In this document: one piece after another, positions 10,197 through 13,556 of the stretch
Position numbering within the stretch: the stretch's first letter is position 1
How the letters are laid out: each line of letters begins with the position of its first letter
Origin: an uncultured Pelagibacteraceae bacterium
Lineage (GTDB): Bacteria > Pseudomonadota > Alphaproteobacteria > Pelagibacterales > Pelagibacteraceae
Length of the DNA: 64,000 nt
NCBI GenBank assembly: GCA_902578935.1
Contig: CACHEU010000001.1
Location: forward strand, 186,001-250,000
Reading direction: 5' to 3'
Position numbers and translations under genes: made by a program
Notes under the pieces: model-generated
What the model was told of the DNA's origin: nothing
What the model saw: only the letters and a program-made list of their open reading frames with translations
Database searches by the model: none

Positions 10197-10222
10197 ATCT
10201 TATTACCAGCACATTGAAAATT

Positions 10223-10270
10223 GGGGCAGCGGTTACCTAGGATTTAGGTTGTTGTCCCAGTAATCTGGGG
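10223..10270 (+). ncRNA. Candidate structured RNA element with two competing hairpins
   Basis: GGGGCAGC (10223-10230) can pair with GTTGTCCC (10251-10258); alternatively CCCAG (10256-10260) pairs with CTGGG (10265-10269); inner ACCTA/TAGGT. Confidence 0.45.
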
Positions 10271-10306
10271 TTGAAATTAATTTTTAATTTGTTAAAAGAA
10301 CTATAA

Positions 10307-10381
10307 ATGTTAACGAGAATAAACATTGCTATATCTCACACACACTCTCACAGAGTGCACGCTAAGCTATTGCTTAGCTAA
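10307..10381 (+). CDS. Candidate histidine leader peptide (24 aa) MLTRINIAISHTHSHRVHAKLLLS
   Basis: ATG at 10307, TAA at 10379-10381; His codons at 10337, 10343, 10349, 10358; overlaps hairpins; upstream of tRNA-His-hisS-hisZ-hisG. Confidence 0.65.
   Translation: MLTRINIAISHTHSHRVHAKLLLS
10343..10378 (+). promoter_or_regulatory. Tandem hairpins of the candidate his attenuator
   Basis: CACTCT-CAC-AGAGTG (10343-10357) and GCTAAGC-TATT-GCTTAGC (10361-10378). Confidence 0.6.
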
Positions 10382-10436
10382 ATCACTACATATTTAAAAT
10401 ATAATTTTATAAACAATTAATATAAAAAGGAGTTAT

Positions 10437-10513
10437 GCAGCAGTAGCTCAGTTGGTTAGAGCACTAGTTTGTGGAACTAGGGGTCGGTGGTTCGAATCCA
10501 CCCTGCTGTACCA
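10437..10513 (+). tRNA. tRNA-His(GTG), CCA encoded
   Basis: Cloverleaf: GCAGCAG/CTGCTGT acceptor, CTAGT-TTGTGGA-ACTAG anticodon arm, GGTTCGAATCC T arm, A73, CCA. Confidence 0.96.
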
Positions 10514-10517
10514 GAAA

Positions 10518-11852
10518 ATGGTAAAAGATAAAAAAACAAAACCCTCTAAGGAATTGCCTTTAGGTTTTGTAGATAGACAAGAAAAGGAACTATTAATCCG
10601 TGATTTTGTAATTTCTAATATTAAAGAAGTTATGATCAAGTACGGTTTTCAATATCTCGAAACACCAAGTTTTGAGTATACAGATAGTATTGGCAAATTT
10701 TTGCCCGACAAAGAAAGACCTGATGCTGGAGTATTTTCTTTTAAAGATGAAAATAAATGGTTGTCTCTTCGGTATGATCTTACTGCCCCACTAGCAAGAT
10801 ATGTTGCAAAAAACTATCTTGAATTACCCAAACCTTTTAAACGTTACCAATTGGGTTCAGTTTGGAGAAACGAAAAACCAGGGCCCGGGAGATTTAGAGA
10901 ATTTTTACAATTCGATGCAGACTATGTTGGAACAAAAAATCTACAAGCTGATGCTGAGCTTTGTGTATTAATATCTGAGATATTAGAAAAGTGCGGGTTA
11001 GACAAGACGGATTACACCGTAAAAATTTCCTCTAGAAAATTTACAGATAAATTATTTGAACAATTAAAAATTAAATCAAAAGATCAAATATCAACCACAT
11101 TACGCGCACTTGATAAAGTCGATAGACTTGGCTGGGCAGAAGCAAAGAAGCTTCTTGGCGAAGGTAGAAAAGATAAATCCGGGGATTATACAAAGGGTGC
11201 GAAACTTAAAAACGATCAGATTAAAATAATTGAAAATGCCCTAAAGAACAAAGCACCTGATAGCGAAGATGTATTAGAAATTATAAAAATATTTCAAGCT
11301 TATAACTTCAAAAATTATAAATTTGACCCATCAGTTATACGAGGGTTGGAATATTACACAGGCCCTATTTTTGAAGTTAACTTAAATTTTGAGGTAAAAA
11401 ATTCAAAAGGACAAACAATTCAGTTTGGATCGATAGGCGGAGGAGGAAGGTATGATAATTTAGTAAATAATTTCGGAAACCTTGATTGTCCCGCAACAGG
11501 AATATCAATTGGTCTTGATAGACTTGTTTTTGCCTTGATGCAGAAAAAAGATTTTAAAATAAAGTCTACACGACCAGTAATCATATGTGTTTTTGATAAA
11601 GATAAAATCAAAGAATATGTCAATATATTAAATAAACTGAGAGCTTCAAACGTCAGTTCTGAGATTTATCCAGGGGAAGGGAAGTTAAAAAAACAAATGG
11701 AGTATGCAAACAAAATAGGCTCCCCAGCTGTTATTTTGTATGGCGATGATGAAATAAAATCAGGAAAAGCAACTTTAAAAAATCTTGAAAACGGAAATGA
11801 GAGTTTCGTTGCAATCGAGGATCTATCAAATGAAATCAAAAAACTACTCTGA
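10518..11852 (+). CDS. hisS: Histidyl-tRNA synthetase
   Basis: YDLTAPLARY, VWRNEKPGPGRFREF.QFD, GGGGRYDNL motifs; ATG at 10518 chosen because the longer ORF runs through tRNA-His. Confidence 0.95.
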   Translation: MVKDKKTKPSKELPLGFVDRQEKELLIRDFVISNIKEVMIKYGFQYLETPSFEYTDSIGKFLPDKERPDAGVFSFKDENKWLSLRYDLTAPLARYVAKNYLELPKPFKRYQLGSVWRNEKPGPGRFREFLQFDADYVGTKNLQADAELCVLISEILEKCGLDKTDYTVKISSRKFTDKLFEQLKIKSKDQISTTLRALDKVDRLGWAEAKKLLGEGRKDKSGDYTKGAKLKNDQIKIIENALKNKAPDSEDVLEIIKIFQAYNFKNYKFDPSVIRGLEYYTGPIFEVNLNFEVKNSKGQTIQFGSIGGGGRYDNLVNNFGNLDCPATGISIGLDRLVFALMQKKDFKIKSTRPVIICVFDKDKIKEYVNILNKLRASNVSSEIYPGEGKLKKQMEYANKIGSPAVILYGDDEIKSGKATLKNLENGNESFVAIEDLSNEIKKLL

Positions 11853-12882
11853 AAATATAATAAAAGTTTTTAAAAGAGATGGTTTTGTTTTATCGGAACC
11901 AGATGTTCTTTTAGATTCAGACTACATTATTCAAAGATCAGGTGAGAATTTTAGAAAGCTAATGCTTACTTTTGAGGATGATACCGGGAAAAGCATGTGT
12001 TTAAGACCAGATTTGACAGTTGCTTCTTGTATAAAATATCTAAAAGATAATTCTAAAGCAAATTCAAAAATTTTTTATTCAGGACAGGCTTATAGAAGGT
12101 CTAATAGTTCAAAAGATAAAGTCATCAATGATCAACTGGGAATAGAGATTTTGGGTTCTAAAAATAAACCCAATGATGATTTAAAAGTTTTAAAAACAAT
12201 TGCTAATTCAATTGAAAAAATAAAAATAAAAAATACCTCAATTAAGGTGGGCGATGTAAGTTTATTCCAAAAGTTAATAGAGTCTTTAAAAATCCCGGAA
12301 AGATGGAAAATGAGACTAATAAGACACTTTTGGAGACCTAAATATTTTGAAGATTTGCTTAATAGACTTGAAACCAACTCTGATGTGGATCCTGTTGCAG
12401 TTGACTTAGATAAAAAAAAATTTTCTGAAATGAAAAGCCTTGATCAAAGCAAAGAAATTGCAAGTCGTAAAGTTTCTGAAATTTTGTCTAGATTTGATAG
12501 AAAGATAAAAGACCCAAGGTCATTTAAAGAAAATAAAAAAATTGTTAAAATTATTAGAGATTTTTTAAAAATTAATTGCTCAATTGACAAAGCAGAGAAA
12601 ACCTTGCAAAGTTTTGTTAAAAAAAATAATTTAAGCAAGAGTGTTTTCAAAGATCTTTCAACTATAAAAAATTTATCAAAAATAAATTCCCAAACTATGT
12701 TCTCAACAAACTTTGGCAGAGATATTGAGTACTACACAGGAATAGTTTTTGAGATATATAATTCTTCAAAAAAGGAGATAGCAAGAGGGGGAAGATACGA
12801 CGGACTATTAAAAAGTCTTGGATCTAAAAGAAATATTTCAGCAGTCGGAGCAGCAATTAATTTGAATAATTTAAAAATATGA
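11833..12882 (+). CDS. hisZ: ATP phosphoribosyltransferase regulatory subunit
   Basis: HisRS-like paralog (MCLRPDLTVASCI, ARGGRYDGL) between hisS and hisG; start probably 11833. Confidence 0.9.
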   Translation, partial: KSKNYSENIIKVFKRDGFVLSEPDVLLDSDYIIQRSGENFRKLMLTFEDDTGKSMCLRPDLTVASCIKYLKDNSKANSKIFYSGQAYRRSNSSKDKVINDQLGIEILGSKNKPNDDLKVLKTIANSIEKIKIKNTSIKVGDVSLFQKLIESLKIPERWKMRLIRHFWRPKYFEDLLNRLETNSDVDPVAVDLDKKKFSEMKSLDQSKEIASRKVSEILSRFDRKIKDPRSFKENKKIVKIIRDFLKINCSIDKAEKTLQSFVKKNNLSKSVFKDLSTIKNLSKINSQTMFSTNFGRDIEYYTGIVFEIYNSSKKEIARGGRYDGLLKSLGSKRNISAVGAAINLNNLKI

Positions 12883-13556
12883 AAAATTTAACAACCATAG
12901 GTTTACCAAGCAAAGGCAGATTAAAAGAAGGCTCAATAGAATTTCTTGAAAAAAATAATTTAAAACTGATATCTAATGGAGCCGAAAGAAACTATTTTGC
13001 TCAGATTGAAAATTTTCCTAATATTAAAATTATTTATTTACATGCAAAAGAAATTATACAGAGACTTGGCGATGGTACTCTTGATATAGGAATATCGGGA
13101 CTAGATCTTTTAAGTGAATCTCCAATCAATCTTCAGAAAAAAATTGAAGTGAAAAAAAAATTAGATTTTGGTATGGCCAATCTCGTGGTCGCCGTTCCCA
13201 ATGACTGGATAGATGTTCAAACTGTTGCCGATTTAGAAGAAGTATCTTTTGATTTTAGAGATAAAAAAAATACTAGATTACGTGTTGCAACCAAGTATCC
13301 GAATTTAACTAATGGTTTTCTTTTTTCAAAAGGAGTTACCCAGTACAAACTTGTTGCTAGTCTTGGAGCTACGGAAACCTATCCATTTATTGGATCGTCA
13401 GAGATTATTACAGATATAACTTCGAGTGGAAAAACTTTAAAAGATAACAATCTTAGAACTCTTAAAGATGGATTGATTTTAAAATCACAAGCGTGTGTGT
13501 TTTTTTCAAAAAAAAAGGCTGCAAAATTGCAGCCTTTTTTAAATTCATTAACTTGA
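12879..13556 (+). CDS. hisG: ATP phosphoribosyltransferase catalytic subunit (short form)
   Basis: GLPSKGRLKE, GDGTLDIGISGLDLL, RVATKYPNLT motifs. Confidence 0.95.
   Translation: MKNLTTIGLPSKGRLKEGSIEFLEKNNLKLISNGAERNYFAQIENFPNIKIIYLHAKEIIQRLGDGTLDIGISGLDLLSESPINLQKKIEVKKKLDFGMANLVVAVPNDWIDVQTVADLEEVSFDFRDKKNTRLRVATKYPNLTNGFLFSKGVTQYKLVASLGATETYPFIGSSEIITDITSSGKTLKDNNLRTLKDGLILKSQACVFFSKKKAAKLQPFLNSLT
13508..13540. terminator. Bidirectional intrinsic terminator inside the hisG 3' coding end
   Basis: A-tract, then GGCTGCA-AAAT-TGCAGCC (13517-13534), then T6; serves hisG (+) and groEL (-). Confidence 0.85.

Follow-up and report, generated by a model that had tools for sequence, protein, structure and literature searches.

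A short open reading frame (ORF) with clustered histidine codons precedes the genes for tRNA-His, its synthetase HisS and the histidine-pathway proteins HisZ and HisG in an uncultured member of the Pelagibacteraceae. Comparative sequence supports this frame well as a leader peptide, and on that point our confidence is high. We also consider it likely that the peptide senses charged tRNA-His and, through ribosome stalling, sets read-through into tRNA-His-hisS-hisZ-hisG.

The leader frame and the operon behind it

In the window, by which we mean the whole 64,000-nucleotide stretch of DNA that was analysed, the frame occupies positions 10307-10381, with 24 codons from an ATG at 10307 to a UAA stop codon at 10379-10381, and translates as MLTRINIAISHTHSHRVHAKLLLS-stop. 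The leader, its hairpins and predicted promoters, and the genes of the operon all lie on the forward strand. Histidine is encoded by codons 11, 13, 15 and 18 (10337-10360). The original prediction, which had described a 24-codon ORF, four histidine codons and two hairpins, gave coordinates that are right base for base. It had also remarked that the histidine codons are all CAC; this is true of the window but not a general feature, as 97 distinct leaders of the family use CAT (184 codons) and CAC (174 codons) roughly equally.

The leader is thus a short ORF with clustered codons for the amino acid of the downstream pathway. At least four histidines within 10 codons were found in only 4 out of 2,875 short ORFs in 431 kb of the window's genome, the leader being among them. 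Given that such a cluster is rare among the short ORFs of the genome and is kept across the family, the His-rich frame before tRNA-His is not a product of chance.

The first gene of the operon is tRNA-His (GTG anticodon, 10437-10513), separated from the leader by a G-poor, AU-rich spacer (10382-10436). It is followed by hisS, encoding histidine--tRNA ligase (10518-11852; TIGR00442, 365 bits, cut-off 287), hisZ for the regulatory subunit of ATP phosphoribosyltransferase (11830-12882; PF13393, with the best NCBIfam matches being HisZ models, below their cut-offs), and hisG for ATP phosphoribosyltransferase itself, step one of histidine biosynthesis (12879-13556; TIGR00070, 172 bits, cut-off 76). 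The downstream genes are therefore as originally claimed, with the tRNA located and the protein genes identified by NCBIfam/Pfam profiles. The leader stands upstream of the cognate synthetase and of pathway genes, with an inner promoter possible in between.

Upstream of the leader, the same profiles identified a cold-shock gene (csp). A long hairpin after csp (10218-10268, GGGGCA...UGUCCC) is variable in sequence yet pairing in relatives; it has no U-tract and is probably the 3' end of the csp mRNA. Within the operon, the hisS ATG lies 4 nt after the CCA end of the tRNA (about 3-8 nt in most family loci read), so near that hardly any leader would remain on the hisS mRNA once the 3' end of the tRNA had been processed. 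At the far end, the hisG/groEL boundary (13509-13549) carries a proper bidirectional terminator, AAAAAAGGCTGCAAAATTGCAGCCTTTTTT, which shows that the genome does have terminators of the ordinary U-tract kind.

Conservation of the leader across the family

Apart from the window's genome, a search of 100 relatives recovered the region in 26 members of the same genus, as well as in other genera of the family. In each locus the frame opens with a Met and a variable N-terminal half, followed by a His cluster, a hairpin and a stop, as in MLKRKYIAISHKHSHRVHARLLLS from the window's genus and MIENLKIINLLNAKHHFAHARLLLS, MKKIVFRHSHHLMHAKHMLG and MIKIYRSTHRHHFHAEHLLGQ from other genera. Conservation of the frame and of its His cluster in relatives had been proposed as a check on the original prediction; over more than 90 distinct loci it held, and the prediction was not refuted. 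Because loci were recruited by similarity to the window, these counts describe relatives and not independent events.

The codon directly before the second hairpin (hairpin 2) encodes histidine in 57 of 57 leaders, as CAC in 30 and CAT in 27. Codon -4 is histidine in 52 of the 57 and codon -6 in 42, and two His codons only were present in 5 of 97 distinct leaders. The cognate codons are thus kept as codons in relatives, and the free third base (C or T) at an otherwise invariant, unpaired triplet argues that selection acts on the codon.

A covariance model built from 47 leaders matched 202 of 397 family genomes, with one copy each. By the union of two model surveys, at least 253 of the 397 have, ahead of tRNA-His, a His-rich frame with a hairpin at its end; this is a lower bound given the strict filters and the many incomplete genomes. 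Twelve of 14 genera carry the leader (the twelfth, in genome L089, by direct reading), and the remaining two yielded no hisS. When 296 genomes across the class were searched with the model, matches were confined to family members, with none outside the order. No second copy before other his genes was detected: the model gave no genome more than one match, and neither hisD nor hisA/hisF is preceded by a His-rich ORF. A search of a phage collection returned, among the matches listed, only tRNA or cold-shock similarity.

The largest genus, here called g3, was mostly missed by the first covariance model, and the first survey had suggested that the leader was absent from it. Reading anchored on hisS ruled this out by revealing a divergent leader, MIKIVKTLVLTHRHHFHAGCTLAI, with the hairpin GCUGGC-UGCAC-GCUAGC, and a second model found the leader in 57 g3 genomes. 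HisS in part of g3 is only 45-48% identical to that of the window, and tRNA-His occurs with several quite different bodies, the leader being retained. Considering that the leader persists while the upstream genes, the tRNA-His body and HisS change, hitch-hiking with a conserved tRNA gene does not suffice to explain its presence.

Radically different tRNA-His bodies occur within g3 (L075-L139), for instance GCACGGGTAGCTCAG..., GCCCTGGTGGTGAAATGG... and GCCGCCTTCGGATAATGG..., and nearly all have a G1:U72 pair and A73 and are without G-1. The pattern resembles that of a tRNA body replaced or remodelled several times, and HisRS, too, is of more than one type. In some g3 genomes (L120, L123, L126 and L127), where the locus has possibly been rearranged, the tRNA-His is unusual, with an odd D-arm or a shortened CCA end, or is not directly followed by hisS.

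A second design was found in the sister family f2 of the same order. In the two of its genera that show both genes, tRNA-His lies 5 nt after tRNA-Phe without a leader. The sister-family hisS has its own leader of 11 codons (MFKFKHHHYHI, MIVFTHHHIHI, MFNFKHHTAHI or similar), located about 130 nt upstream of hisS with no tRNA-His between (L080, L081, L175-L191). A covarying hairpin starts at the base after its stop codon (GUUYGCUGA...UCAGCRRRC, GUUUGCUAG...CUAGCAGAC, GUUUGUUAG...CUAACAAAC) and is followed by a conserved ACCCCY, and TTGAC is found 35-36 nt before its ATG, as counted by eye. Some members also show a hairpin around the ribosome-binding site of hisS (ACGAUU-GG-AAUCGU). Since a different His leader stands before hisS in the sister family, His-leader control of hisS seems to recur within the order in two designs. 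Other alphaproteobacterial hisS loci that were read had no His-rich ORF upstream, although several of these "hisS" ORFs were picked by length and position and are possibly not hisS.

Hairpins, promoters and the 5' end

The two hairpins differ in their evolutionary reach. Hairpin 2 (10361-10378, GCUAAGC-UAUU-GCUUAGC) has its first base directly after the last His codon and ends where the stop codon begins. In 39 distinct sequences, 100% of cells were paired, the changes being G-U wobbles only, and across genera the stems show two-sided changes (GCUAAGC/GCUUAGC, GCUGGC/GCUAGC, AUAGCC/GGCUAU, GCAAGC/GCUUGC, AUGGUAGC/GCUAUCAU). To judge from the loci compared, hairpin 2 is a universal, conserved structural element of the leader. 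Hairpin 1 (10343-10357, CACUCU-CAC-AGAGUG) overlaps His codons 13-15; in a neighbouring genus it has undergone a compensatory change from C-G to U-A. As a family-wide element it was rejected, with 67.5% of cells paired over the family, and we regard it as lineage-specific. The expectation of covarying stems was therefore borne out for the second hairpin and not, beyond its lineage, for the first. Folding of 10306-10437 as a whole gave -22.1 kcal/mol, compared with -13.8 +/- 3.0 for shuffled sequences (z -2.75).

Of 95 leaders, 77 have the first base of hairpin 2 immediately behind the last His codon, and the stop codon falls inside the hairpin in 8, within 2 nt of it in 37 and 3-4 nt after it in 50. 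These positions bear on the idea that the frame encodes a functional small protein, or a metal-binding His-rich peptide, which stands upstream of tRNA-His by happenstance. Such a product would be in line with a frame kept across a family, and some leader peptides also act in trans, for example peTrpL of Sinorhizobium meliloti (PMC7298713). We nevertheless regard this as extremely improbable. The sequence of the N-terminal half is not conserved, the C-terminal codons go with the hairpin and not with any peptide motif, the position of the stop codon wanders, even into the hairpin, and the place before tRNA-His, HisRS, HisZ and HisG is a histidine-sensing context.

In many genera, the start-codon region of the proposed leader can pair over 8-13 bp with a segment just after hairpin 2. 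Summed over groups, the score was 186.6 for cognate pairs and 149.9 for deranged ones, with 0 of 400 derangements as high as the cognate value. We treat this test as supportive only of a co-evolution of the start region with the post-hairpin segment in most genera, because the best helix was chosen freely in AU-rich sequence and the groups were set by hand after viewing the sequences. The same pairing was rejected for the window's genus, where the cognate score (10.7) was below the swapped scores (11.3 and 12.4), and we do not claim it for the window. A start-proximal hairpin, AUGUU/AACAU, in the window's genus gave a weak, mixed signal, and we do not propose it.

A promoter, P1, is predicted for the leader at 10271-10298, comprising TTGAAA (10271-10276), 16 nt, TAAAAG (10293-10298) and a further 8 nt to the ATG. 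Of 97 distinct leaders, 93 have a TTG that starts 33-38 nt ahead of the ATG, compared with 15% of control windows of equal width. From this constant spacing we predict a leaderless leader mRNA, with transcription from P1 starting at about 10305-10307, no more than about 2 nt from the AUG.

A TATAAA box at 10421-10426, 10 nt before tRNA-His, is a candidate inner promoter (P2) without a good -35 element. In the relatives read by eye, the box recurs almost without exception at 10-12 nt before the tRNA gene, which suggests a second, inner promoter; if so, part of the tRNA-His transcription probably escapes control by the leader. The near-constant distance of the box, together with a spacer that is nearly invariant within the window's genus, would also fit a conserved element that serves tRNA-His only as a promoter or RNA 5' leader and in which translation plays no part. 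To this we assign only the slightest probability. Neither a promoter nor an RNA element would lead one to expect that the unpaired CAY before hairpin 2 keeps its C and A with a third base split 30:27 between C and T, or that frames stay open across variable N-termini.

A proposed histidine sensor without an intrinsic terminator

The absence of a U-tract after the second hairpin, pointed out in the original prediction, was borne out: the window has no terminator-like site and no U-tract terminator between the leader ORF and the first gene. We also found no mutually exclusive terminator/antiterminator pair in the window, where hairpins 1 and 2 are adjacent and can co-form, and no alternative pairing partner for the hairpins in the window's genus. 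With no terminator and with hairpins that are not mutually exclusive, the region departs from the classical hisL design.

Classical attenuation might still operate through a weak intrinsic terminator, with hairpin 2 terminating in lineages with U-rich tails and the window's version being degenerate. In 34 of 95 leaders the first 8 nt past the hairpin do contain 5-6 T (e.g., UAUUUAAU or UUAUUUAU), but in all 27 loci of the window's genus the same 8 nt contain only 2-3 T (mostly UAAAUCAC). Considering also that the window has no terminator-like site and that the hairpin lies inside the ORF, so that translating ribosomes disrupt it, this explanation is very unlikely.

For a leader peptide that responds to tRNA charging, we propose the following sequence of events. 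Transcription from P1 would begin at the leader AUG or beside it, and a ribosome would load on the leaderless 5' end directly behind the RNA polymerase. When His-tRNA is ample, the ribosome would pass the His codons and halt at the UAA, and the leader RNA would then fold into hairpin 2, together with the start-region pairing in most genera or hairpin 1 in the window's genus. With the leader folded, most polymerases would stop in the AU-rich stretch before the tRNA. When His-tRNA is scarce, the ribosome would stall on the His codons, the folded state would be prevented, and the polymerase would read through. As the last His codon abuts hairpin 2, a ribosome stalled there would cover the 5' arm of the hairpin. 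The inner promoter P2 may provide a basal supply of tRNA-His.

We infer the stalling, the read-through and the direction of the response. The weakest step, also one that we infer, is termination in the AU-rich spacer, for which Rho is the leading candidate; a rho gene is present in the window's genome, and the spacer is G-poor and not C-rich. The original reading of the region as a histidine leader peptide or attenuator thus has the support of conservation, with the qualifications that attenuation itself is the proposed part of it, that hairpin 1 is lineage-specific and that an inner promoter is suggested.

The same leader could instead act on RNA stability or processing, if the folded leader were cut or degraded unless held open by a stalled ribosome, thereby altering the survival of tRNA-His and hisS mRNA. 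This would accommodate the lack of a terminator in the window; in most genera the leaderless 5' end is paired and could control access to the 5' end, and with hisS beginning a few nucleotides past the tRNA, tRNA processing already shapes the hisS mRNA. We think it unlikely, given that known leader peptides of amino-acid operons act mostly on transcription and that the 5' pairing is missing in the window's own genus.

Within the preferred reading, in which the leader sets read-through, a more specific model is tentative, and we would call it possible rather than probable. Here a leaderless leader without an intrinsic terminator would let translation at the 5' end decide folding (in most genera, of the start region with the segment after hairpin 2) and thereby set read-through. 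A single sensor would then govern how much tRNA-His is made and how far it is charged, and it would have outlived the replacement of tRNA bodies and of the synthetase.

In enterobacteria, hisL is a short ORF with clustered His codons, a run of seven, upstream of hisG, with hairpins adjoining the His codons. The window shares the His-codon cluster in a short ORF upstream of hisG and the hairpins adjoining it. Unlike hisL, it has neither a U-tract terminator nor an antiterminator alternative, its four His codons are separated, a leaderless start is predicted, and tRNA-His and hisS come first in the operon. The Rfam His_leader model gave no match at its gathering score or at E values up to 5, and only tRNAs or sub-threshold chance matches were returned. 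Leader control can also be Rho-dependent, as in tnaC, where TnaC senses free tryptophan through the nascent peptide. The proposed system resembles tnaC in having a leader peptide without an intrinsic terminator and a stalled ribosome that would decide read-through; in contrast to tnaC, the clustering of His codons points to tRNA charging, and Rho is a candidate.

Precedents exist for several individual features. In Bacillus, His leader peptides were predicted before hisS* and hisZ (Naville and Gautheret 2010, PMC2965389); they were found via premature terminators, and no sequence similarity to proteobacterial leaders was seen. The window likewise has a His-codon ORF before genes of the hisS and hisZ families, but it has no terminator and tRNA-His intervenes. 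The trpL mRNA of S. meliloti begins at its AUG, as predicted for the leader in the window, and is likewise an alphaproteobacterial leader peptide; unlike the window's leader, it senses Trp, ends in a transcription terminator and controls trpE(G) (PMC7298713). In Streptomyces, synthetase genes such as trpS and leuS are under classical leader attenuators, and the same study saw no conserved structure ahead of histidine operons (PMC1262725); the parts consulted mention no tRNA gene preceding the synthetase. Leader attenuation of a synthetase gene is therefore a likeness to our proposal, and the classical form of those attenuators a difference. Histidine goes unmentioned in the main text of a 2009 survey of structured RNAs in Pelagibacter ubique. 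The papers searched, few of them from subscription journals, describe no SAR11 His leader and no leader peptide standing before tRNA-His.

In gene content, size and AT-richness, the genomes of the family look like those of SAR11 bacteria (Pelagibacteraceae), which rank among the sea's most abundant bacteria and are poor in known regulators. If our reading is true, they would carry a widespread, unannotated, translation-based histidine sensor, and a tRNA gene would be placed under leader-peptide control together with its own synthetase. That the leader stays while the tRNA-His sequence and the HisRS type change suggests a regulatory element more stable than the genes it possibly controls. Being without an intrinsic terminator, it raises the question of how attenuation ends transcription in streamlined, AT-rich genomes.
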